This document shows positions 27,998 to 38,497 of a stretch of DNA of 64,000 bases, one piece after another. The first letter of the stretch is position 1; the number at the start of each line of letters is the position of its first letter. This stretch comes from Phycisphaeraceae bacterium D3-23. Its GTDB lineage: Bacteria > Planctomycetota > Phycisphaerae > Phycisphaerales > Phycisphaeraceae. Both the position numbers and the translations under genes were made by a program. Below the pieces are notes generated by a model. The model was not told the DNA's origin and did no database searches. It saw only the letters and a program-made list of their open reading frames with translations. The stretch spans positions 2,542,001 to 2,606,000 of the forward strand of contig CP114179.1 of NCBI GenBank assembly GCA_039555135.1, read 5' to 3'.

Positions 27998-28438
27998 CTA
28001 CTCGGGTGTGGGCCCGGGGGTGGGGCGGGTGAGGGTGAAGGCGCCTTTGGAGGATGAGCCAGCGAATGTCGCGTGGTGCCATTCCCCTTGGAGCGTGGCC
28101 GATCCGCGTCGAGCAAACAAGATGACGTTGTGGTCATGGGCACCGTCGTTCAGGTCGACAAACCACTCCGAGCCGTATGCCTGGGCCTTGAATCTGCCTT
28201 GCGACATCGAGGCGTCTGGGAATACGCTGTTCGACCAGAGCAGGTCGTACGTGCCGGTGAATTCAAGTGACGAGTCGGCCGGCACATCGACGGGGTCGTC
28301 CGGGAACGCGATCTGCGCGGAGGCGATCTTGTTGCCGGCCTTATCGTAGAAGACCAGGTTCCCATCGACGTGCGGCGGGGGTTTTGCGCAGGCGGGGCAG
28401 AGTAACAGGCATAGCGCTAAAAGGTAGCCGTATCGCAT
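27998..28438 (-). CDS. Hypothetical lipoprotein
   Basis: 146 residues. Signal peptide with lipobox CLLLCPAC gives a lipidated Cys17. The mature part is about 125 residues, beta-rich, with NLVFYDKAGNKIASAQIAFP, TYDLLWSNSVFPD and GEWHHATFAGSSSKGAFTL. A Thr/Pro tail ends at the stop, which abuts the family I hairpin. Function unknown. Confidence 0.6.
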   Translation of the reverse strand: MRYGYLLALCLLLCPACAKPPPHVDGNLVFYDKAGNKIASAQIAFPDDPVDVPADSSLEFTGTYDLLWSNSVFPDASMSQGRFKAQAYGSEWFVDLNDGAHDHNVILFARRGSATLQGEWHHATFAGSSSKGAFTLTRPTPGPTPE

Positions 28439-28525
28439 GCCGGATCATAACGCACGGAATCGTAAAATCGTAGGGATGATTCGCCGCCATGTCATACACC
28501 GCAATTCGCAGTGGGCTTGAGGTGC

Positions 28526-28550
28526 AGCCGCTGTGTGTGACACGGCGGCT
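28526..28550. repeat. Family I hairpin copy
   Basis: AGCCGCTGTG pairs imperfectly with CACGGCGGCT around GTGTGA. Lies at the 3' end of the small membrane protein gene. Confidence 0.55.
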
Positions 28551-28580
28551 CTTGGCTTGGGGTGTGATTGACTTATGGCC

Positions 28581-28817
28581 TCAGTCAGCGTCGCGGGGCG
28601 GGTCTGGCTTGGCGTGCAGCTTGGACAGGATGACTAGTCCGACGACGGCGGGGAGGGCGCCGACGGCGATGCCCAGGACGCCGTTGCCTTCGGTGTCGCT
28701 GTTGCTGGGGCCGGCGGCGAGGAGGTTGATGCCGATCGAGTGGGTGAAGGCGTCGATGAGCAGGGCCGCGCCGACCAGGATCAGGATCACGCCGATGACG
28801 GTGCCGAAGATGCGCAT
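28581..28817 (-). CDS. Small two-TM membrane protein
   Basis: 78 residues with two hydrophobic helices (about 4-25 and 46-65) separated by a polar loop (GPSNSDTEGNG). It resembles short DUF3185-like proteins in outline (LILVGAALLIDAF...GVLGIAVGALPAVVGL), but that assignment is tentative. Function unknown. Confidence 0.55.
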   Translation of the reverse strand: MRIFGTVIGVILILVGAALLIDAFTHSIGINLLAAGPSNSDTEGNGVLGIAVGALPAVVGLVILSKLHAKPDPPRDAD

Positions 28818-28907
28818 GGGGGGATGATACCGGCCGCACGCGGGGGGTACCAGACGCTTCGCGGACTCAGCGTCGGCGTGAAGGTGTGGTGATGCTGTAC
28901 GGCTCGC

Positions 28908-29960
28908 CTACGGCCGAGGATGGAACCGCTGCACGACATCCTTCAGCCGGCTGCGGTCGACGTGGGTGTAGACCTGGGTGGTCTGGATGTTGCTGTGGCC
29001 CAGCAATTCCTGTACGACGCGGAGGTCCGCGCCGCCGGCGAGGAGGTGGGTCGCGAACGAGTGACGCAGCGTGTGCGGGTGCACATCGTTGAGCCCGGCC
29101 CGCTTGGCGTGGCGCTTGACGACCTGCCAGACCACGACGCGCGTGATGGGCTGGCCCGTGCGCGACAGATAGATCTTGTTGCCCGAGGCGGGTTTTTCGA
29201 GGTCGGGGCGCAGCTCGTCGATGTAGCGCTGCGCCGCGCGGAGCGCGGGTCGGCCGATCGGGACGAGGCGCTCTTTGTTGCCCTTGCCCAGGACGCGCAC
29301 GACGCCGAGGTCCAGGTGCAGGTGGTCGAGCTGCATGTCGGCCAGCTCGCTGGCGCGGAGCCCCCCGGCGTACAGCATCTCGAGCAGCGACACGTCGCGC
29401 AGGTACAGCCCGTCGGAGGGCTGGGGCGCGGCGAGCAGTTTGCGCACGTCTTCGTCCGCCATCACGCCCGGCGTCTTCTGCCAGGTGCTGGGCTGGGCGA
29501 GCAGCTCGGCGGCGTTATCTTCGACGATGCCGTTGGACTCCATGAACCGGCAGAAGACGCGCATGGTGGCGACGTGCCGTGCGATGGAGCTGGCTTCGAG
29601 CTTGCGGTCCTCGCAGAGGTACTGGAGGTGGTCGGTGATGAGGTTGTGGTCGAGGGCGTCCCACCCGGCGTGGCCGCGCTGGGCGAGGTAGACCCAGAGG
29701 TCGCGCAGGTCGCCGGCGTAGGCGGAGATGGTGGCGGGGGCGAAGCCGCACTCGACGCGGCAGTAGGTCAGGAACTGCTCAACCGGAGACGCGAACCTTG
29801 AGGGCTTTTTCTGGGGGTCGTTGGCCCGCCGGGATCGGTTGGCCGGCGAGGGTGAGGACGACCGCAGTCCGCCGGGGTTTGGGCGTGTCGCCTGGCCGAT
29901 GGGTCGGGGCCCCGGTGTGGCGTGGCGTGGTGCGGTGTTGAAGGTGGGTCGCAGTGTCAT
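28908..29960 (-). CDS. XerC/XerD-type tyrosine recombinase
   Basis: 350 residues. The N-terminal SAM-like domain (about 58-150, VEQFLTYCRVECGFAPATIS) and catalytic domain contain all six active residues: Arg in GGLRASELADM, Lys in VLGKGNKERLVP, His-x-x-Arg in HTLRHSFATHLL, His in ELLGHSNIQTT and nucleophile Tyr in QVYTHVD. It probably resolves chromosome dimers at dif; it could instead be a phage-type integrase, but no mobile cargo adjoins. The first about 55 residues are low-complexity Pro/Arg/Ser-rich and overlap the upstream gene by 182 bases, so the true start may be later and non-ATG. Confidence 0.9.
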   Translation of the reverse strand: MTLRPTFNTAPRHATPGPRPIGQATRPNPGGLRSSSPSPANRSRRANDPQKKPSRFASPVEQFLTYCRVECGFAPATISAYAGDLRDLWVYLAQRGHAGWDALDHNLITDHLQYLCEDRKLEASSIARHVATMRVFCRFMESNGIVEDNAAELLAQPSTWQKTPGVMADEDVRKLLAAPQPSDGLYLRDVSLLEMLYAGGLRASELADMQLDHLHLDLGVVRVLGKGNKERLVPIGRPALRAAQRYIDELRPDLEKPASGNKIYLSRTGQPITRVVVWQVVKRHAKRAGLNDVHPHTLRHSFATHLLAGGADLRVVQELLGHSNIQTTQVYTHVDRSRLKDVVQRFHPRP

Positions 29961-30141
29961 CGGCGTTGGCCCGCAGTTCCCAGGAGATCGTGTGATACAT
30001 GTGGCAGGCGAAGTGCCGCCCGCCGAGGCAGTAGTCGAAGGCCTCGGCCAGGGACTGCTTGGTCATCCGACAGCTACACCTCCCGTCGCCTTCATCGACG
30101 AACGGGCACGATCCGTTGGCGATCATGCTGGGAAGAGCCAT
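29779..30141 (-). CDS. Small cysteine/histidine-rich protein overlapping the recombinase gene
   Basis: 120 residues from ATG 30141, with GGAGG 12 bases upstream. Residues 10-52 carry CPFVDEGDGRCSCRM, then AFDYCLGGRHFACHMYHTI: five Cys and several His spaced like a metal site. The block resembles small planctomycete proteins I recall without a known function. The remainder is Pro/Thr/Arg-rich. Its 3' half overlaps the recombinase frame (stop at 29779 versus recombinase ATG at 29960). The conserved part is entirely outside the overlap. Either a genuine overlap, or one of the two starts/ends is wrong. Confidence 0.5.
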   Translation of the reverse strand: MALPSMIANGSCPFVDEGDGRCSCRMTKQSLAEAFDYCLGGRHFACHMYHTISWELRANADDTATHLQHRTTPRHTGAPTHRPGDTPKPRRTAVVLTLAGQPIPAGQRPPEKALKVRVSG

Positions 30142-30163
30142 GCTGCGGAGAACCTCCTTGTCC

Positions 30164-30189
30164 CTGCCCGGTAGTATCGGCCCGGGCAG
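30164..30189. repeat. Stem-loop upstream of the Cys-rich gene
   Basis: CTGCCCGG pairs with CCGGGCAG over a 10-base loop. It is flanked by GTCCC/GGGAC, so the palindrome extends. Within the leader of the Cys-rich gene; a regulatory role is possible. Confidence 0.5.
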
Positions 30190-30348
30190 TGTTGCCGGGA
30201 CAGAAAACAGCGGACCGCGTTGGCGCGGTAAAGAGGGGGGTTTGGCGTGCGCGTTGGCGTCCGATAAACGCGGTGGGGTGTGGGGAAATGTGGAAGGGGG
30301 GTGGGGAAGTGGGTGATGCAACGCGGGCTAAGCACCGACGAAGTTTGT

Positions 30349-31905
30349 TCAGCGCTGCGCGTCGGTTTCGTCGAGCAAATGCAAGATGGATTCGAGCTTG
30401 CTTCGCACCTCGGCGCATTGGTCTTGCTGTATCGCGGACTGAATCACTGGGCGTACCGCGTCACGGATTGAACGCTGTGATTCGCCATCGCTCAGTGAGC
30501 TATTGATCAATTGGTCGAGTCCATCCGCAGCGACGACGCGCTCTACGACACCGGGCTGGCTTAGTAAACCAGCCCACGCCGCGACATCAGCCGCCTCGGC
30601 AGGGCGGAGCGCGCCGGACGCGAGGGACAAAAAAGTAAAATGTTTGTCCTCGGCTTGATATCTGACGCTCTGGTCGGGGTGCGTTTCGAGTTTGACAAGC
30701 TGAAGATAGGTTTCATTGAAAAGGCGACAAAGCGAAGCGATATCGCCTTGCATGAGTGCCTTATGCATCGCGGCGCCCAACCAGACTATTCCGCTGCGAA
30801 GGTCCTCGGCATGAGGGCTGCTGTAGTAGGCCTCCCAAACCTGGAGGACGAAGGGTTCGAGCGGCTCGTTGCGTTCGTGCTTGTGCCAATAGATTTTGTA
30901 TGCCGCGGTTGAGATGCACTGGCGCATGGTTTCGTTGTCTTGGCCGATCCAGTCGAGTACATAGGGCAGGGCGGGGTCGCCACGTCGCCCGAGTTCTTGC
31001 GCGGCCAGCAGCCGAAGGTTCTTCGGGTTGTTCATGTCCTCGATCACCGGGATCAGGGCCGAGGCCACCATGTCTGGCGCAGCCGACACTTCATCCAGTT
31101 CAATCAATACCGCCTGGGTCAGCATGCGATCATTCGATTGCAACGGATGGAGCAGCGCAGCGATATCGCCGCGATCACGGAGGGGAGACACCCGCGCAAA
31201 AAAGAAAACTGCGTCGGTACGTTGACGTAAAGAACGATTCGTGTCGCTGATCTGGCTTTTGAACTGGTCTGCACTCCATCGTGATTGCCAATCCCACAGG
31301 TGCGCGTATCCGCCAGTGTTCCCACCCGGAGCTAAAGCGTACTGGCGACCGCTCCCAAGCAGTGTGCCGGTCCCGCCGGTCGCTCCCGGCATCTTCCCCC
31401 ACGGGTACGCGCGGTGGTACACGATCAAGTCTTCATCCCCGCTGCGGTAGGGCAGCACCGCGATCCACCACGTCGTCGGCGTCAGCGCGATCGCGGTGGG
31501 TTCGTTCAGGTGTAGCCGGCGGAACTGGACGTGGGTGGCGTACCAGGTTGAACACGACGCGGCGAGCAGCAGCAGCGACACGGCAAGCCATCTGCGCGAG
31601 CGGCGGGTGCGGTAGAAATCTTTGACACGCTTGGGGGACCAGCCGCACTCGGGGCAGGAGCCGTGGGGCTTTGGTGAATCTGTAGCGTCCGCTTGCTCGG
31701 GCTGGTTGCTTAAGCAACCAGCCCAACCGGGTTGTCCTGGCGTGTTGCTGGCGTCCGCCGGGTACCCGCACTTGCGGCAGCGGGGCTTACCTTTCGCGCG
31801 GTCGTAGAACCACGCGTGCCGAAACGCGGCGGCCGCGAGCAGCAGGAAAAGAACGATCCCGAGGATATAGAACACCTGCCCCGGGATATCCGCCGATGGC
31901 CACAT
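30349..31905 (-). CDS. Zinc-ribbon membrane protein with HEAT-like repeats and repeat-element insertions
   Basis: 518 residues. TM segment near residues 11-30, then a CRKCGYP...CPECGW zinc ribbon, a second TM around 110-128, and a large external or cytoplasmic helical region with HEAT-like units (RLLAAQELGRRGDPALPYVL). Planctomycete zinc ribbons normally have about 15 residues between the Cys pairs. Here a 22-residue insertion encoded by a hairpin element separates them, between two copies of ADA. A second hairpin of the same type encodes WAGLLSQP near residue 447. Function unknown. Confidence 0.65.
   Translation of the reverse strand: MWPSADIPGQVFYILGIVLFLLLAAAAFRHAWFYDRAKGKPRCRKCGYPADASNTPGQPGWAGCLSNQPEQADATDSPKPHGSCPECGWSPKRVKDFYRTRRSRRWLAVSLLLLAASCSTWYATHVQFRRLHLNEPTAIALTPTTWWIAVLPYRSGDEDLIVYHRAYPWGKMPGATGGTGTLLGSGRQYALAPGGNTGGYAHLWDWQSRWSADQFKSQISDTNRSLRQRTDAVFFFARVSPLRDRGDIAALLHPLQSNDRMLTQAVLIELDEVSAAPDMVASALIPVIEDMNNPKNLRLLAAQELGRRGDPALPYVLDWIGQDNETMRQCISTAAYKIYWHKHERNEPLEPFVLQVWEAYYSSPHAEDLRSGIVWLGAAMHKALMQGDIASLCRLFNETYLQLVKLETHPDQSVRYQAEDKHFTFLSLASGALRPAEAADVAAWAGLLSQPGVVERVVAADGLDQLINSSLSDGESQRSIRDAVRPVIQSAIQQDQCAEVRSKLESILHLLDETDAQR
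30553..30575. repeat. GGGCTGG hairpin inside a coding sequence, copy 2
   Basis: GGGCTGGCTTA, loop G, TAAACCAGCCC with one mismatch, translated as AGLLSQP in the zinc-ribbon HEAT-like protein. Confidence 0.65.
31685..31758. repeat. Hairpin insertion with 8-bp direct repeats inside a coding sequence
   Basis: GCGTCCGC occurs at 31685-31692 and 31751-31758, 66 bases apart. Between them is a perfect 12-bp stem GGGCTGGTTGCT / AGCAACCAGCCC (31699-31724). The added length is 22 codons and keeps the frame. Confidence 0.75.
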
Positions 31906-31985
31906 GGCCCAAGCATACCGCGAACGCGCGGAAAATCCGACAATCGCGCGTACCTCACGGCAGACTTCGCCGATACACTAGTTGG

Positions 31986-32852
31986 ATGCCGATGCGACTT
32001 ACATGCTGGATCGCCCGACCCCTGGCCTACGCGGCCACCTGCGCCGCGCTGGGTGCCGCGCTGCTGACAGCCGGGCAGTCGGCGGCGCAGGGCCAGCCCG
32101 TCGACCGCGGCACGGCCGACCTCGGGCCCAACAGCGTGAGCCACCGCGTCGTCGAGCCGGGCATCGCGCAGTTCAGCCCCGAAGGTGCGCTCACCGACCG
32201 CTACGCCAGCGACCCCGCGACGCGATTGGCGAACCTGTATCACCAGCCCGATGCGCACCGCCGGTACCTCTACCAGGCCCCGGGTGTTACGGCCCTGTAC
32301 AACCAGTCCGACTACATCACGCGCGACAACCAGGGCGTTGGCGGGGTCAACCGCAGCAACGCGGGCAACGGCCAGGTGTTTGCGATCGCGCCGGCGGACA
32401 TCGTGTATGTGCTGTCGCCCGACCTGCTCAACACGAGGCCTGTGCAAGAAGCATTGCCGCCTGCGCCCGGGCAGATTGATCGACGGATGTTGCCCACGGC
32501 GATCCAGCCCGGGCCGTACGCGAACACGGCCGGCGGGCAGCTCAACACGCGGATCGATGGGCACCTCAATACCGCGCAGCCGAGCATCGTGGATGTGCAA
32601 GCGATCCACGACCGACGTCGCGGCGCGCAGCGCGACCCGCGACTGGTCGAACGCGCACGGCGCTGGCGCGAAGAGCGCGAACGTGCGGAGCGCGACGCGC
32701 GCGAAGCCGAGGCGACTCAGGCCGACGAGGCGGACCCGGCGGGTGTAGCGGATGATGCGGCGGTCGACGAAACGAATGAAGACGATGCGGGGGTCGGTGT
32801 TGCAGCCGAGCCCGCGCCGCTGCCGCCCGTGCCCCCGACGCCGCAAGACTAG
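31986..32852 (+). CDS. Hypothetical exported protein
   Basis: 288 residues. The N-terminal hydrophobic signal (about 10-32, ending AQGQP) suggests export. The central part repeats Asn/Gln/Tyr/Arg-rich segments (YNQSDYITRDNQGVGGVNR; NTRIDGHLNTAQPS). From residue 215 there is a highly charged helical stretch (RRWREERERAERDAREAE), then an acidic, Pro-rich tail. No family recognised. It is expressed away from the zinc-ribbon gene. The next gene, 90 bases on, encodes the selenoprotein-like SelW homologue. Confidence 0.6.
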   Translation: MPMRLTCWIARPLAYAATCAALGAALLTAGQSAAQGQPVDRGTADLGPNSVSHRVVEPGIAQFSPEGALTDRYASDPATRLANLYHQPDAHRRYLYQAPGVTALYNQSDYITRDNQGVGGVNRSNAGNGQVFAIAPADIVYVLSPDLLNTRPVQEALPPAPGQIDRRMLPTAIQPGPYANTAGGQLNTRIDGHLNTAQPSIVDVQAIHDRRRGAQRDPRLVERARRWREERERAERDAREAEATQADEADPAGVADDAAVDETNEDDAGVGVAAEPAPLPPVPPTPQD

Positions 32853-32863
32853 ATGAGCCACTC

Positions 32864-32890
32864 AAGCCCACGCTCGGCGAGGGTGGGCTT
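32864..32890. repeat. Family A hairpin with one mismatch
   Basis: AAGCCCACGCTC, loop GGC, GAGGGTGGGCTT, between the exported-protein gene and the selW-like gene. Confidence 0.75.
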
Positions 32891-32942
32891 CCCATTACTC
32901 TGCAATTCAACGGGGCGCCTCGCGCTCCATGTCGAGGACCCC

Positions 32943-33176
32943 ATGCACCTCACGATCACCTACTGCGGGATGTGAAACTACAAGCCCGATGCCGTCAGTT
33001 TGGCGGCCGAGCTGAAGGATTCACTGAACATCGACGCCGAGCTCGTCCGCGGCGGCGGCGGCATCTTTGAAGTCGCGCTCAACGGGGAAGTGATTTACGC
33101 GAAAGCACAAACTGGACGATTCCCAGAGCCCGGCGAAGTGCCGCGTGCGATCCAGGCACGGCAAAACAACGCCTAG
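32943..33176 (+). CDS. SelW/Rdx-family selenoprotein with in-frame TGA (Sec11)
   Basis: 77 residues when the TGA at 32973-32975 is read as selenocysteine; stop TAG at 33174-33176. The thioredoxin-like Rdx signature is complete: an N-terminal beta strand, TYCGMU (CxxU, Cys8-Sec11), then NYKPDAVSLAAELKD, IDAELVRGGGGIFEVALNG and AQTGRFPEPGEVPRAI. The downstream half matches the family so well that TGA cannot be a random stop. GAGGA (32934-32938) lies four bases before the ATG. A SECIS-like stem-loop follows the TGA. Family members are small thiol or selenol oxidoreductases of unclear substrate. Sec machinery is not in the window. A Cys-to-stop mutation is the alternative. Confidence 0.85.
32984..33012 (+). 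promoter_or_regulatory. Bacterial SECIS-like stem-loop
   Basis: An upper 6-bp stem GCCGTC (32991-32996) pairs with GGCGGC (33002-33007), one G-T, around loop AGTTT. A lower stem GCCCG/CGAGC (one mismatch) is separated from it by an AT bulge. The loop lies 22-26 bases after the TGA, within the spacing used by bacterial SECIS elements recognised by SelB. Confidence 0.6.
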
Positions 33177-33184
33177 GCACACCC

Positions 33185-33433
33185 CTTGCTTAGCCGTGGC
33201 CCGGCGGGCGGCGCGTTTCCGGACAGAGGAACAACACTCATACGCATCCCCGAAAGAACACACGTTCCGGGGTGCCACACAACTGGCCTGTCCGCAGGCC
33301 TGCTGTGTGCCGGGACGATCAATGGCATCGGGTTGTCGCACACAGCAGCACTACGGGCAGTTGTGTGGCACCCCGGAAGAAACGCGCGCGAATCAACTGG
33401 GATGTGTATCACCCGTTCGGCGGTCGGCGAAAC
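33185..33433 (+). repeat. Degenerate family B element interrupted by family C
   Basis: Left end CTTAGCCGTGGCCCGGCGGG; right end ACCCGTTCGGCGGTCGGCGA. The same nesting of C inside B is seen at 10205-10453. Confidence 0.55.
33265..33378 (+). repeat. Twin-hairpin element, family C copy 3
   Basis: Starts TTCCGGGGTGCCACACAACT and ends AGTTGTGTGGCACCCCGGAA (mutually complementary). The loop carries CTGTGTGC and GCACACAG. Confidence 0.85.
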
Positions 33434-33464
33434 AAGACGACGGCCCTAGGGTGGGTCGTTGGTG

Positions 33465-34106
33465 TCACGTACGGAACCCCGCGATGCCCGCGAGCGCGAA
33501 GCGGTGGATGACTTCGGTCAGGCGCTCGGCCTGGTCCTGGTCGAACGACATCTCCGGGTGCATGTGCGCGATCGCCGGGCGGCAGTGGTGGTAGTGCAGC
33601 GCCATGGCCACGACGGCGCACGCCAGGTCGCGCGGCCGGGGGTCGCTCGGGTCGTCGGGGTCGGCGTCGAGCAGCTCGGCGACGATGCCTTCGAGCTTGC
33701 GTTGATGAGGCGCGATGTTGCCGTCCATCGCGTGCTGGAGCGCGACGGTCGGCTCGACCATCTCGCGCAGGATCATGTTGGCGTACCACGCGGCGGGGCC
33801 TGTTGCGAAGCAGCGACCGAGCATCCCGCGGATGTGTCGACGCAGGCGGTCTTCGGGTGGCAGCGGCCCGGTCGGCGGGGGGCCGGCGGGGTAGGGGTCT
33901 TCGTGGAGCGCGCGTTGGCGGGCGTGTTCGAGCGCTTCGAGGTGGAGCTTATCCTTGCCGGCGAAGTGGTAGTTCACGGCCGCGCCGTTGGTCCCGGCCT
34001 TGTCGCAGATGTCCCGGACCGTCGTGTTGCGGTAGCCACGCGTCGCAAACAGCTCGGCCGCGGCATCGAGCAGGCGCCGGCGTGTGTCGTCGGGGGGTGG
34101 GGTCAT
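33465..34106 (-). CDS. TetR/AcrR-family regulator, CecR (DUF1956) type
   Basis: 213 residues. N-terminal TetR HTH (about 8-55): RRRLLDAAAELFATRGYRNT, VRDICDKAGTNGAAVNYHFA, where NYHF ends the recognition helix. The C-terminal ligand domain has the CecR/DUF1956-like RRHIRGMLGRCFATGPAAWY and ILREMVEPTVALQHAM. Such regulators usually control efflux or ABC export genes. No efflux gene adjoins here, so the target is unknown. Upstream of the start (34148-34180) is a family B hairpin that could overlap the promoter. Confidence 0.85.
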   Translation of the reverse strand: MTPPPDDTRRRLLDAAAELFATRGYRNTTVRDICDKAGTNGAAVNYHFAGKDKLHLEALEHARQRALHEDPYPAGPPPTGPLPPEDRLRRHIRGMLGRCFATGPAAWYANMILREMVEPTVALQHAMDGNIAPHQRKLEGIVAELLDADPDDPSDPRPRDLACAVVAMALHYHHCRPAIAHMHPEMSFDQDQAERLTEVIHRFALAGIAGFRT

Positions 34107-34147
34107 GGGGTGGTCAAAATCAGATTGAAGAGTGGATGCGTGTTGCT

Positions 34148-34180
34148 GTTTAGCCGTCGCCCGCTGGGCGATGGCTAAAC
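34148..34180. repeat. Family B minimal single hairpin
   Basis: GTTTAGCCGTCGCCC, loop GCT, GGGCGATGGCTAAAC. A 33-base form made of one left and one right end. Confidence 0.8.
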
Positions 34181-34206
34181 GGCGCGCCTGAAAATCGCGC
34201 GGCGAA

Positions 34207-34692
34207 TCACGCAGCGGGCGGATGGATAAAACTGAAGTGCAGCTCCGCGTGCCGGCAGTGCATCAGCGTCCACTTCTCGTGGCCCAGGTCCCCGGCCACG
34301 GGGCTGGGGTGGGTCATCTTTTTCGTCTTGGCATCCGCGATGTTCTGCTCCAACCGACGCACCGCCTCGTCCCAGGCAACACCTTTCTCGGGCTCGAAAA
34401 ACTCCATCCCCTTGGGAAACTTGATGCCCGGGCTGAGCTTCATGGTGAGCATCTTTCGGCCAAACAGCTTGACCATCGTCGTGAACAGCACCTTCTGGAT
34501 CTTCGAGGGCTTGCAGTCCGGGAAGCCGTGGACCGTGTAACCGATCGCCTTGCTGACGTGCTCGACGTTCTCGGCCGGGGTCCACTTGCCGGCCGCAGTG
34601 AGGCCTTCGGCTGGCAGAGCCTTGATATCTGCCAGAACCTCGTCAAGGCTGTTGAACGTAAGATCCCGTCTTTCCATGTGTTTATGTCCCAT
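34207..34692 (-). CDS. DUF1569 family protein
   Basis: 161 residues. DinB-like four-helix fold: GKWTPAENVEHVSKAIGYTV (helix 1 with His), the middle LSPGIKFPKGMEFFEPEKGV, and the C-terminal HEKWTLMHCRHAELHFSF with the His pair typical of DUF1569. Function unknown; DinB relatives bind a metal and can act as thiol-dependent transferases. ATG 34692 is used; ATG 34677 (MERRDLTF) is equally possible. Neither has a clear ribosome site. Confidence 0.82.
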   Translation of the reverse strand: MGHKHMERRDLTFNSLDEVLADIKALPAEGLTAAGKWTPAENVEHVSKAIGYTVHGFPDCKPSKIQKVLFTTMVKLFGRKMLTMKLSPGIKFPKGMEFFEPEKGVAWDEAVRRLEQNIADAKTKKMTHPSPVAGDLGHEKWTLMHCRHAELHFSFIHPPAA

Positions 34693-34815
34693 TTAAGTGT
34701 TTGCAACGATCGTATGTCTTTATTGTATCAAACATCTGTTTGATTGCAAGAATGGCGACGCATCGAGTGTTGAGGAAGTAGCCGCATCCGGCTTTCCCGT
34801 GCCTGCACCCTTCAG

Positions 34816-35655
34816 TCAACCGCCGATCAAGGCGTTATCAAGCAGGCGGACCTTGCCCAGCCGACCCGCGACCAGCGCGACGACGGGGCGGTCGACCGTG
34901 TCGAGCGTGGCCAGGGTATCCGGGTGGCGGATCGCGGCGTAGTCGGGCTCGAGCTGGTGGGCCGCGATGGTCTCGGCCATGGCGGCCTCGATCGCGGCCG
35001 GGTCGGTCTCGCCCTCGTCCTCGATCAGGTGGCGCGCGAGCTTCAGGGCCTTGGACAACCCCAGCGCGTGGCGGCGCTGTTCGGCATCGAGGTAGCGGTT
35101 CCGGCTGCTCATGGCCAGCCCGTCGGGCTCGCGCACCGTCGGCACCCGCTGGATCGCCAGCCCGAGATTCAGGTCCGCAACCATCGACTCGATGATGCGA
35201 AGCTGCTGGTAGTCCTTCTGCCCGAAGCACGCGAAGGTCGGCTGGCAGATGTTGAACAGCTTGAGACACACCCGGCAGACGCCGTGGAAATGCCCGGGCC
35301 GATTCGCACCCTCGAACTCAGTGCTGATCGACGGGACATCGATCTGCGTCGGCAACGCGCCGGGCGGGTACATGTCTTCCGGGGGCGGGTTGAACACGAC
35401 GCGGGCCCCGGCCGCTTCGCACTTGGCGAGGTCGTCTTCGATCGGGCGTGGGTACTTGCTGAAGTCTTCGTGGGGGCCGAACTGTGCGGGATTGACGAAG
35501 ATGGAGACCCAGACCTCGTCGGTGAGTTTCCGCGCGGCTGCGATGAGTTCGATGTGCCCATCGTGCAGCGCGCCCATCGTCGGGACGAGCGCGACCGGGG
35601 CGTCGATCGTCCTGCGGTGGGCGCGGGTCTCGGGGATCGTGGTGAGGTGGAGCAC
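34816..35655 (-). CDS. panC: Pantothenate synthetase PanC
   Basis: 279 residues. Condenses pantoate and beta-alanine with ATP to make pantothenate for coenzyme A. Nucleotidyltransferase motifs: LVPTMGALHDGHIELI (HxGH), VSIFVNPAQFGPHEDF, FGQKDYQQLRII, REPDGLAMSSRNRYLD (KMSKS-like). Length is normal. Start is the GTG at 35655, which abuts the GGGTTTGGG-type word repeat. panB and panD are not in the window. Confidence 0.95.
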   Translation of the reverse strand: MLHLTTIPETRAHRRTIDAPVALVPTMGALHDGHIELIAAARKLTDEVWVSIFVNPAQFGPHEDFSKYPRPIEDDLAKCEAAGARVVFNPPPEDMYPPGALPTQIDVPSISTEFEGANRPGHFHGVCRVCLKLFNICQPTFACFGQKDYQQLRIIESMVADLNLGLAIQRVPTVREPDGLAMSSRNRYLDAEQRRHALGLSKALKLARHLIEDEGETDPAAIEAAMAETIAAHQLEPDYAAIRHPDTLATLDTVDRPVVALVAGRLGKVRLLDNALIGG

Positions 35656-35657
35656 GG

Positions 35658-35697
35658 GGGGATTGGGTTTGGGGTCTTGGGTACTGGGTTTGGGAAG
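35658..35697 (-). repeat. CCCGAAA-related word repeat before panC
   Basis: The plus strand reads GGGATTGGGTTTGGGGTC then TTGGGTACTGGGTTTGGG, the complement of the CCCAAACCC/CCCGAAACCC words. One arm only; it ends at the panC start codon. Confidence 0.6.
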
Positions 35698-35752
35698 GCG
35701 GAGTATACGGCGGCGGAAAACATGCGTGCGAACGTCCGTGGCGACGCCATCG

Positions 35753-35832
35753 GTTTAGACGTCGCCCGGCGGGCGGCGCGCGGGTGGGTGTGGGGCGGGG
35801 ACGCGAGGGCCCCGTTGGGGCACCGGCTAAAC
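35753..35832 (+). repeat. Twin-hairpin element, family B copy 5
   Basis: GTTTAGACGTCGCCCGGCGG continuing GCGGCGCG; right arm GGGCCCCGTTGGGGCACCGG continuing CTAAAC. The right arm is shared with the copy at 63789-63870. Confidence 0.75.
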
Positions 35833-35849
35833 GGGTGGTCGTCGCGGTA

Positions 35850-35874
35850 CCCATGGATGGAATCCGTGGGCTTC
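35850..35874. repeat. Family A hairpin, GGAT/ATCC subtype, divergent promoter
   Basis: CCCATGGAT, loop GGA, ATCCGTGGG, then CTTC; one mismatch. 28 bases upstream of the methyltransferase start. Confidence 0.7.
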
Positions 35875-35901
35875 GGGGTAGATCCATCTATACTCAGCCG
35901 C

Positions 35902-36792
35902 ATGTCGGAAGGGCCTTGGACAAGCAAGCGGCTGCTGGCGTGGACGACCCGCGCGTTCGAGCAGCGGGGGATCGATTCGCCGCGCGTCTCGGCCGAGATG
36001 CTGCTGGCGCATGTGTTCGGCGTCGGTCGGCTCAAGCTGTACATGGACCCGGACCGCCCGGCGAGCGATCTCGAACGCGCCGCGTACCGCGACCTGGTCG
36101 AGCGTGCGCTCGCGGATGAGCCGGTGGATTATCTGGTCGGGCAGGCCCCGTTTTTCTCGATGATGTTCAAGGTGTCGCCCGCGGTCCTGGTGCCCCGGCC
36201 GTCGACGGAGACGATGGTGGAGCACGTGCTGCAGCACGCGCGGCGGACGCCGGGGTTTGAGTCGCCGACGGTCGCGGATGTGTGTACGGGTAGCGGGGCG
36301 ATCGCGGTGTCGCTGGCGCGGCAGTTCAAGCGTGACAAGACGGCGACGGGGCCGGGCGCGGTCGTGGCGACGGACTTGTATGAAGATGCGCTGGCCGTGG
36401 CGCGCGAGAACGCCGAGACGCACGGCGTTGTGGAGCTCATCGACTTCCGCCACGGCGACCTGCTTGAGCCGTTGGGCAACGCCAAGTTCAGCTACCTCAT
36501 CAGCAACCCGCCGTACATCCCCGATAGCGAGTGGGCAGATGTTGCGCCGAATGTGAAGGACCACGAGCCGACGCACGCGCTGCGCGGCGGGGTGGACGGG
36601 CTGGATTTGATCCGGCCGTTGATCGCGGGGGCGCTTGCGCACCTGCGCGACCCCGGGCAGTTGGTGGTGGAGATCGCGTCGGTGCAGAAGGACGCGGTGA
36701 TTGCGTTGGCGGCCGAGGCGGGGCTGCGTCACGCGACGGTGCTGGTGGACCACGAGCACTTGCCGCGTGTGTTGGTGGCGGACACGCCGTAG
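35902..36792 (+). CDS. Protein-(glutamine-N5) methyltransferase, PrmB/PrmC (HemK) family
   Basis: 296 residues. An N-terminal helical domain (SAEMLLAHVFGVGRLKLYMD, PVDYLVGQAPFF) precedes a Rossmann methyltransferase with VCTGSGAIAVSLARQF (SAM motif I) and ISNPPYIPDSEW, the NPPY catalytic motif for methylating Gln. PrmC acts on the GGQ of release factors and PrmB on ribosomal protein L3; the sequence alone does not settle which. The usual RPETE reads RPSTE here, a small deviation. Start ATG 35902, directly after a family A hairpin. Confidence 0.88.
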   Translation: MSEGPWTSKRLLAWTTRAFEQRGIDSPRVSAEMLLAHVFGVGRLKLYMDPDRPASDLERAAYRDLVERALADEPVDYLVGQAPFFSMMFKVSPAVLVPRPSTETMVEHVLQHARRTPGFESPTVADVCTGSGAIAVSLARQFKRDKTATGPGAVVATDLYEDALAVARENAETHGVVELIDFRHGDLLEPLGNAKFSYLISNPPYIPDSEWADVAPNVKDHEPTHALRGGVDGLDLIRPLIAGALAHLRDPGQLVVEIASVQKDAVIALAAEAGLRHATVLVDHEHLPRVLVADTP

Positions 36793-36798
36793 TGTTTC

Positions 36799-36878
36799 GT
36801 AGGGTGGGTGGAGCGAGTCGGCGAGCGCAACCCACCGGGGGACTCAAGAAAGTTGGTAGCGCCCGGTGGGTTGCGCTG
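36799..36878 (+). repeat. Family D element copy 2
   Basis: GTAGGGTGGGTGGAGCGAGT then GCGAGCGCAACCCACC, and a right arm GGTGGGTTGCGCTGCA. It is immediately followed by a family C right half. Confidence 0.65.
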
Positions 36879-36882
36879 CATT

Positions 36883-36923
36883 GCACACAGCAGCCCGGCG
36901 GACCGGGCAGTTGTGTGGCACCC
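36883..36923 (+). repeat. Family C right half
   Basis: GCACACAGCAGCCCGGCGG then ACCGGGCAGTTGTGTGGCAC. The left half is absent; the hairpin CAGCCCGG/CCGGGC is retained. Confidence 0.7.
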
Positions 36924-36940
36924 GAACGCAGCGTGCGCGC

Positions 36941-37405
36941 TTATTCCGGGGGCGGCTGATGCGTGGGGGGTGGGCCGGTATAGGTGTTGCCGTAGGCGCG
37001 GGCGATGATGAAGGCGAGGTAGGCGGAGAAGGCGATGAAGATGACGGATGCCATATCGCCAAAGAGCCAGTTGATCGCGTGGTTGGCATCGGGTTTGAAG
37101 TTGGGGTCTTGCCACTTGATGACGAACATGTGGCGGTAGACGTAGGCGACGAGTCCGGTGACGGCGGAGAGGAGGACCGCGACGAGCCCGACGCGGGGGG
37201 CGGGGCGCTTGCCGGCGAGCCGCATCGCGCCGCCGATGATGACGCCGGTGAGGATCGGCGCGAGCCACTGGTTGCCGTTCATCTTGGTATAGGTGAGTCC
37301 CCACAGGAAGAACGCGAGGAACGCGCCGACGACGCCGGCGGCGTAGGGGAGCCAGATCGGCAGGCCCTGTTTCTTAGCTTGTTCGCCTTCGTCGACGTAG
37401 GGCAT
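36941..37405 (-). CDS. Hypothetical membrane protein
   Basis: 154 residues with four hydrophobic segments (about 18-37, 45-63, 72-90, 115-137). The tail is Pro-rich (TGPPPTHQPPPE). The start MPYVDEGEQAKKQG is hydrophilic. No motif recognised. It lies 33 bases downstream of trpD on the same strand and may be cotranscribed, although no functional link is evident. Confidence 0.6.
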   Translation of the reverse strand: MPYVDEGEQAKKQGLPIWLPYAAGVVGAFLAFFLWGLTYTKMNGNQWLAPILTGVIIGGAMRLAGKRPAPRVGLVAVLLSAVTGLVAYVYRHMFVIKWQDPNFKPDANHAINWLFGDMASVIFIAFSAYLAFIIARAYGNTYTGPPPTHQPPPE

Positions 37406-37438
37406 CTTCGGGTCTCCGGTGGGGCGGGGTGTTGCGGA

Positions 37439-38497
37439 TTACTTCGCGTCTTCGTTGGTGATCTGGATGAGGGTATCGAGCGCCTGCTTTGCGCTGCCGT
37501 CGTCGAGGGCGGCGAAGGCGAGTTGGAGCCCATCGGCCAGGTCGTCGGCGACACCGGCGACGACCAGCGCGGCGGCGGCGTTCAAGGCGACGATCTCGCG
37601 CGCGGCACTGCCGCCGCCGGCGAGGACATCCGCGATGATCTTCGCGCTCTGCTCGGGGCCCTCGGCACGCAGCGCGGAGGGGTGGCCCAGCGAGAGGTCG
37701 AGCTCGGTGGGGTCGAGCTCGTTGGTGATGATGCGGCCGCCCAGCAGGGTGGTGACGCGCGACGGGCCGCAGGTGGAGAGCTCGTCGAGGGCGTCGGCGT
37801 GGGTGCCGTCGGCGTCGGGGATGCTGCCGTGGACGACCATGGCGTGGATCGCGCCCAGCCGGTGCAGGACCTTGGCGATGAGGTCGGTGAGCTGGGGCCG
37901 GAAGACGCCCATGACCTGGCGCTGCGCCCCGGCCGGGTTGGTGAGCGGGCCCACGAGGTTGAAGAGGGTGCGGAAGCCGAGGTCGGCGCGGACGGGGCCG
38001 GCGTGTTTCATGGCGGGGTGGTGCTGGGGGGCGAAGCAGAAGCAGATGCCGGCCTCGCTCAGGCAGCGTGTGAGTGTGTCGCCGTCGGCGGTGAGGTGGA
38101 CGCCCAGTGCGCTTAGGACCTGCGACGAGCCGGACTTGCTGGTGACGGACTTGTTGCCGTGCTTGGCGACGCAGATGTTCATGGGCCGGCCCGCGCCGGC
38201 GGCGACGATGGCGGCGGCGGTGGAGATGTTGAACGTGCCGGCGTGGTCGCCGCCCGTGCCGCAGGTGTCGATGGCGGTGAGGCCCTTGGGCACGGCGACG
38301 TTCGCGGCCTTGCGGCGCATGACGGTCGCGGCGCCGACGAGCTCGTCGACCGTCGCGCCGCGCTGCGCGATGAGCGCGAGCAGGGCGGCGGTCTGTGTGG
38401 GCTGCGCCTTGCCGGACATGATCTGGTCGAAGGCGTCGATGGCCTGGGTCTCAGAGAGCGGCTGGCCGTCGACGAGCTGGGCGAGGAGGGGTTTCAT
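37439..38497 (-). CDS. trpD: Anthranilate phosphoribosyltransferase TrpD
   Basis: 352 residues. Transfers phosphoribose from PRPP to anthranilate in tryptophan synthesis. Motifs: the N-terminal helical domain with LALIAQRGATVDELVGA, then DTCGTGGDHAGTFNIST (PRPP/Mg loop), VAKHGNKSVTSKSGSSQVL, KHAGPVRADLGFRTLFNLVG, GPLTNPAGAQRQVMGVF. Full length and apparently intact. No other trp gene lies in the window, so the pathway genes are scattered. Confidence 0.95.
   Translation of the reverse strand: MKPLLAQLVDGQPLSETQAIDAFDQIMSGKAQPTQTAALLALIAQRGATVDELVGAATVMRRKAANVAVPKGLTAIDTCGTGGDHAGTFNISTAAAIVAAGAGRPMNICVAKHGNKSVTSKSGSSQVLSALGVHLTADGDTLTRCLSEAGICFCFAPQHHPAMKHAGPVRADLGFRTLFNLVGPLTNPAGAQRQVMGVFRPQLTDLIAKVLHRLGAIHAMVVHGSIPDADGTHADALDELSTCGPSRVTTLLGGRIITNELDPTELDLSLGHPSALRAEGPEQSAKIIADVLAGGGSAAREIVALNAAAALVVAGVADDLADGLQLAFAALDDGSAKQALDTLIQITNEDAK

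Follow-up and report, generated by a model that had tools for sequence, protein, structure and literature searches.

The stretch of DNA analysed here (the window, 64,000 nucleotides from Phycisphaeraceae bacterium D3-23) almost certainly carries a real, functional gene for a SelW-like selenoprotein, in which an in-frame TGA would direct the insertion of selenocysteine (Sec) at residue 11. The features of this gene in the window are as follows.

32943..33176, + strand: selW-like selenoprotein gene, 77 aa, ATG start, TAG stop
32973..32975, + strand: in-frame TGA, codon 11, in the CxxU motif (YCGMU), translated with TGA as U
32934..32938, + strand: candidate Shine-Dalgarno sequence GAGGA, 4 nt before the ATG, proposed from the sequence
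32991..33007, + strand: bacterial SECIS-type hairpin, 7-bp stem, 3-nt loop GUU at 32998-33000, UGA-to-loop distance 22 nt

With TGA read as U, positions 32943-33176 (+) translate as MHLTITYCGMUNYKPDAVSLAAELKDSLNIDAELVRGGGGIFEVALNGEVIYAKAQTGRFPEPGEVPRAIQARQNNA*. The frame contains a single in-frame TGA, followed by 66 codons, and ends with the TAG at 33174-33176, so the 77-codon frame with TGA at codon 11 described in the initial annotation was borne out by translation. The same annotation held that standard gene calling would miss or truncate the gene, and indeed, among the table 11 ORFs of at least 60 aa overlapping 28000-38000, none was found in the selW frame at the selW position; plain ORF calling therefore splits the gene. 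The Sec reading corrects a gene that such calling would shorten and makes a clear addition to the bacterial selenoproteome. In 28 of 33 selW-like loci, a GGAG or AGGA sequence was present in the 22 nt preceding the start codon. A mechanical pattern scan of the window returned 34 CxxU- or UxxC-like TGA frames, with the selW-like frame among them; this frame is not due to chance, because its Pfam Rdx match spans the TGA.

We searched the product against profile libraries and aligned it with its homologues, with the TGA entered as Cys in the profile and alignment programs. Pfam Rdx (PF10262) matched residues 3-71 across the TGA with an E-value of 8.8e-17 (61.5 bits, cut-off 22.6), in agreement with the full Rdx-family continuation that had been claimed for the part after the TGA. 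TIGR02174 (CXXU_selWTH) matched with an E-value of 2.9e-15 (56.3 bits, cut-off 34.2). The redox motif near the N terminus is YCGMU (residues 7-11), and Y7, C8 and U11 were invariant in 32 aligned selW sequences, in which U is shown as C; position 11 of the Rdx/SelW alignment is thus the U of CxxU. An AlphaFold2 model, predicted from an alignment of 32 sequences (the window and the loci), had a pLDDT of 90.4. The top PDB matches of this model in Foldseek were SelW-related, among them 2fa8 and 2obk (TM about 0.87), and thioredoxins ranked lower. The predicted model has the small thioredoxin-like fold expected of such a product.

The part of the gene after the TGA looks to be under purifying selection. 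Compared with the copy in a same-genus relative, dN was 0.21 and dS 0.79 over the 61 codons after the TGA, and the differences at codon positions 1, 2 and 3 numbered 15, 6 and 27, respectively. In this relative, selW lies near the same two neighbours, a gene for a 318-aa protein (52% identity over 185 aa) and a TetR-like gene (83% identity over 205 aa).

The TGA was conserved throughout the class. A protein search of 298 class genomes gave matches at 65 places in 60 genomes, each with an in-frame TGA, and three of these rows also counted TAG or TAA. A Pfam profile search of the same genomes, which is less bound to the single window sequence, likewise gave 65 Rdx matches in 60 genomes, the window's own included, with one TGA each; the Cys form, that is, an Rdx match with no stop, was found in 0 of 65. 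At the codon level, all 65 class places had the TGA three codons after a Cys. Decayed sequence downstream of the same stop in relatives, which the initial annotation had named as evidence against the Sec reading, was not what we found, as the frame was conserved after the TGA in all 65 Rdx matches. Two selW-like loci, both with TGA, were present in each of five class genomes (G136, G196, G204, G290 and G296; loci L023-L025, L030, L046, L061, L085, L091, L103 and L107).

Beyond the class, TGA forms and Cys forms were both found. In a phylum draw of 392 genomes, which had the class genomes G000, G131, G107 and G172 among its matching genomes, 143 had an Rdx match; among the matches listed (150 rows), 139 contained a TGA and 11 had no stop. 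Four of these 11 were examined, and all were Cys forms with TGC or TGT at the codon; three belonged to a Trp-containing subgroup, and one was nearer to the Sec forms (YCGGCPYLPQ). Since no-stop forms were returned for the phylum, a search of this kind was not blind to Cys forms in the class. Furthermore, 80 candidate stretches from a named collection yielded three confirmed relatives, all TGA forms, whose record titles name Gammaproteobacteria, Pseudomonadales and Zixiibacteriota (two other phyla).

These data bear on a pseudogene, in which a stop has arisen from a Cys codon by mutation and the remainder is decaying. The in-frame stop is what such a gene would show, but all 65 class places, as well as three loci that their record titles assign to two other phyla, have the TGA at the same codon, the sequence downstream of it seems to be under purifying selection, and the genome encodes the Sec machinery; we consider a pseudogene extremely improbable. 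That the TGA is a mistake of sequencing or assembly, against which a single assembly alone offers no safeguard, is scarcely conceivable given the identical TGA in 59 other class genomes.

The genome is a single contig of 4.62 Mb, in which 8.4 kb of the + strand hold selD, selB, selA and tRNA-Sec. The presence of this machinery was one of the checks that the initial annotation had put forward, and all four components were found. Together with the conservation of the TGA in the class, they support its reading as Sec, and insertion at this codon would follow. The components, and a further gene with an in-frame TGA, are listed below by genome position.

3621249, + strand: selD match, E 8.7e-108
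3626090, + strand: selB, E 1.2e-107
3628078, + strand: selA, E 1.1e-156
3629527-3629622, + strand: tRNA-Sec, 65.3 bits against an Rfam cut-off of 47, with ARAGORN in agreement (anticodon tca)
3495465-3497504, - strand: fdhA with in-frame TGA (locus L074), Fdh-alpha match over cut-off

This genome probably gives rise to three or more selenoproteins (SelW-like, SelD and one FdhA), because selD and one fdhA also hold an in-frame TGA. The selD gene (L020 1626-2681, genome 3621225-3622280) contains it at L020 1680 in the context ADCGG-U-AGKLP. Two Fdh-alpha matches were over the cut-off, one with an in-frame TGA (CAAT-U-HAPTVAGL) and the other without. In selD and fdhA, we take the TGA to mark the position at which SelD and FdhA proteins usually carry Sec or Cys. 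In the region of the selD UGA, no hairpin beyond that of shuffled sequences was found (z -0.56).

A genome-wide reassignment of UGA to another residue, or read-through without Sec, would also produce a protein whose frame is preserved. Nevertheless, the gene's own stop codon is TGA in 9 of 33 homologues (called by script), e.g., in the same-genus locus L022, and UGA is therefore not reassigned throughout. The presence of selA, selB, selD and tRNA-Sec, the location of the TGA at the redox position of CxxU and the SECIS-type hairpin downstream of it also argue against both variants, to which we give very little credence. Class-wide TGA conservation, the Sec machinery and the TGA terminal stops led us to reject all three alternatives, namely a pseudogene, a sequencing error and a general reassignment of UGA.

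The published bacterial SECIS model sets the stem at 4-16 bp and the loop at 3-9 nt with a G among its first two nucleotides, and it requires a UGA-to-loop distance of 16-37 nt and an MFE of -7.5 kcal/mol or lower (PMC13188914). The selW hairpin falls within all of these bounds, with its loop GUU, 7 bp, 22 nt and -10.1 kcal/mol. The 50 nt from the UGA folded at -15.9 kcal/mol (z -2.05), and the 19-nt hairpin core, which was picked after seeing the 50-nt fold, had a z of -3.87. In a column comparison of 33 loci, one of them from the window itself, the G of the loop (column 26) was invariant. Pairs 20-34, 23-31, 24-30 and 25-29 were kept in all 33 loci and pair 21-33 in 32, while pairs 18-36, 19-35 and 22-32 were broken in 16, 11 and 8 loci, respectively; four of the eight pairs showed change on both sides.

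Comparison of the hairpin with slid registers gave mixed results. The hairpin exceeded every slid register in the share of cells paired (86.4% vs. at most 51.1%) and in the covariation score (0.167 vs. at most 0.117). For cells changed on both sides, its value of 7 was surpassed by one slid register (8) and reached by 55 of 500 shuffles, and in pair types one slid register equalled it across the 33 loci. Folding against synonymous shuffles gave mean z values of -0.78 for the SECIS segment, -0.88 for the next 17 codons and -0.11 for a third segment (32 sequences each), with -1.97, -2.20 and +1.61 for the window's own gene; in this test, the excess of structure over shuffles was no greater in the SECIS segment than in the next 17 codons. 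When a covariance model built on the hairpin region was searched against the window's own genome, only the selW gene was found convincingly (E 1.3e-10), and the three other matches (E 1.85 to 3.6) were at the level of chance.

Codon choice under the hairpin loop is a better sign of the SECIS than these folding and pair measures. Codon +8, which lies at the loop, encodes Ser at 41 of the 65 class places and Gly at 23; every Ser is AGT (41/41) and every Gly is GGT (23/23). The one remaining place, in the same-genus relative, has Arg AGG. Elsewhere in 32 selW genes (29 from the class and three from other phyla), AGT accounted for only 4 of 109 Ser codons and GGT for 33 of 223 Gly codons, and seven ORFs taken from the window's genome had AGT at 4 of 138 Ser codons. 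The adjacent Leu at +9 was TTG or CTG in 32 of 32 genes, compared with 82 of 140 Leu codons elsewhere in those genes; the codon statistics ignore kinship. The codon at the hairpin tip is frozen beyond what the protein requires. Four Cys-form loci had neither AGT nor GGT at +8, a weak control, as their protein sequence also differs there. Four Sec-type loci from the phylum draw had AGT, GGT, AGG and AGC at the loop codon, one each, and judged by these sequences the codon rule is looser outside the class.

Within the class, selW co-occurred with Sec decoding. Of the 298 class genomes, 109 gave a selA match, which in 104 of them was over the cut-off. With three weak partial matches left out, selA was present in 58 of 60 genomes with selW and in 48 of 238 without it, a count that ignores kinship. 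The two selW genomes without a selA match (G239 and G272) are split assemblies of about 210 and 530 contigs, and tRNA-Sec and SelB were over their cut-offs in both. Ten same-family genomes were listed without selW, and no selA match was found in any of them. The converse fails, as 48 class genomes have selA but no selW match.

There is perhaps an even chance that SelW in this class is locked to Sec: only the Sec form was found, the gene would have been lost rather than converted to Cys upon loss of Sec decoding, and the SECIS tip would freeze a codon (AGT or GGT in 64 of 65 places). If this is true, SelW serves a function for which Cys cannot acceptably replace Sec in these bacteria. A 2006 table of bacterial selenoproteins includes SelW-like and remarks that its Cys homologues are very few or absent in organisms that use Sec (PMC1794560), and the Sec-only pattern across the 298 genomes sampled extends that remark.

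We propose that the ribosome would reach the UGA at codon 11 of the selW-like mRNA, where Sec-tRNA-Sec would be brought by SelB, attached to the bacterial SECIS (the hairpin located 22 nt downstream). Translation would then run on to the TAG at 33174 and yield a 77-residue Rdx protein of thioredoxin fold with the active site C8-G-M-U11. The product would most likely be a small thiol/selenol redox protein, in which attack of the selenolate on an oxidised substrate would form a selenenylsulfide that C8 then resolves.

A long imperfect inverted repeat lies directly after the selW-like gene (window 33265-33378), with 24-nt arms that are 96% complementary and a nested 23-nt pair. Its end sequence, GGTGCCACACAACTG, occurred seven times in the window at up to three mismatches, compared with 1.74 expected by chance, and was present as an inverted pair three times (5397/5487, 10245/10400 and 33271/33358). 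The repeat at 33265-33378 is probably a small palindromic repeat element.

Publications on SelW-like selenoproteins of bacteria go back at least to 2005. In the Sargasso Sea set, no other selenoprotein family was as abundant (PMC1088965), and SelW-like and SelD proteins were the most widespread selenoproteins in the Global Ocean Sampling set (PMC2398784). A 2026 catalogue lists SELENOW-like as PF10262 with CxxU, a high-confidence prediction, and the same review describes the functions of such proteins, SELENOW-like included, as largely uncharacterised (PMC13188914). A 2016 paper described the Sec machinery and selenoproteins of planctomycetes, and its main text does not mention SelW (PMC4807772).

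Structural comparison with the Rdx structures 2fa8, 2obk, 3dex and 2p0g showed that the predicted model shares their fold, with TM-scores of 0.86-0.88, and all four were also matched by sequence. 3dex, the sole alignment compared at the Sec position, has Cys there, unlike the window protein. The best NCBIfam profile was NF041051, SelTWH_Campy (seleno)protein (E 5.8e-24, residues 4-70). The score of 84.1 bits is below the cut-off of 88 for this equivalog, and the window protein was therefore not assigned to it. Compared with the SelW-like (SELENOW-like) bacterial selenoproteins, as far as the cited texts describe them, no departing feature was found: PF10262, CxxU, UGA-coded Sec and a downstream bacterial SECIS are all common to them and the window gene (PMC1088965, PMC1794560, PMC2398784, PMC13188914). 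Organism and lineage alone differ, and it is an organism and a lineage that the window gene adds to this long-known family.
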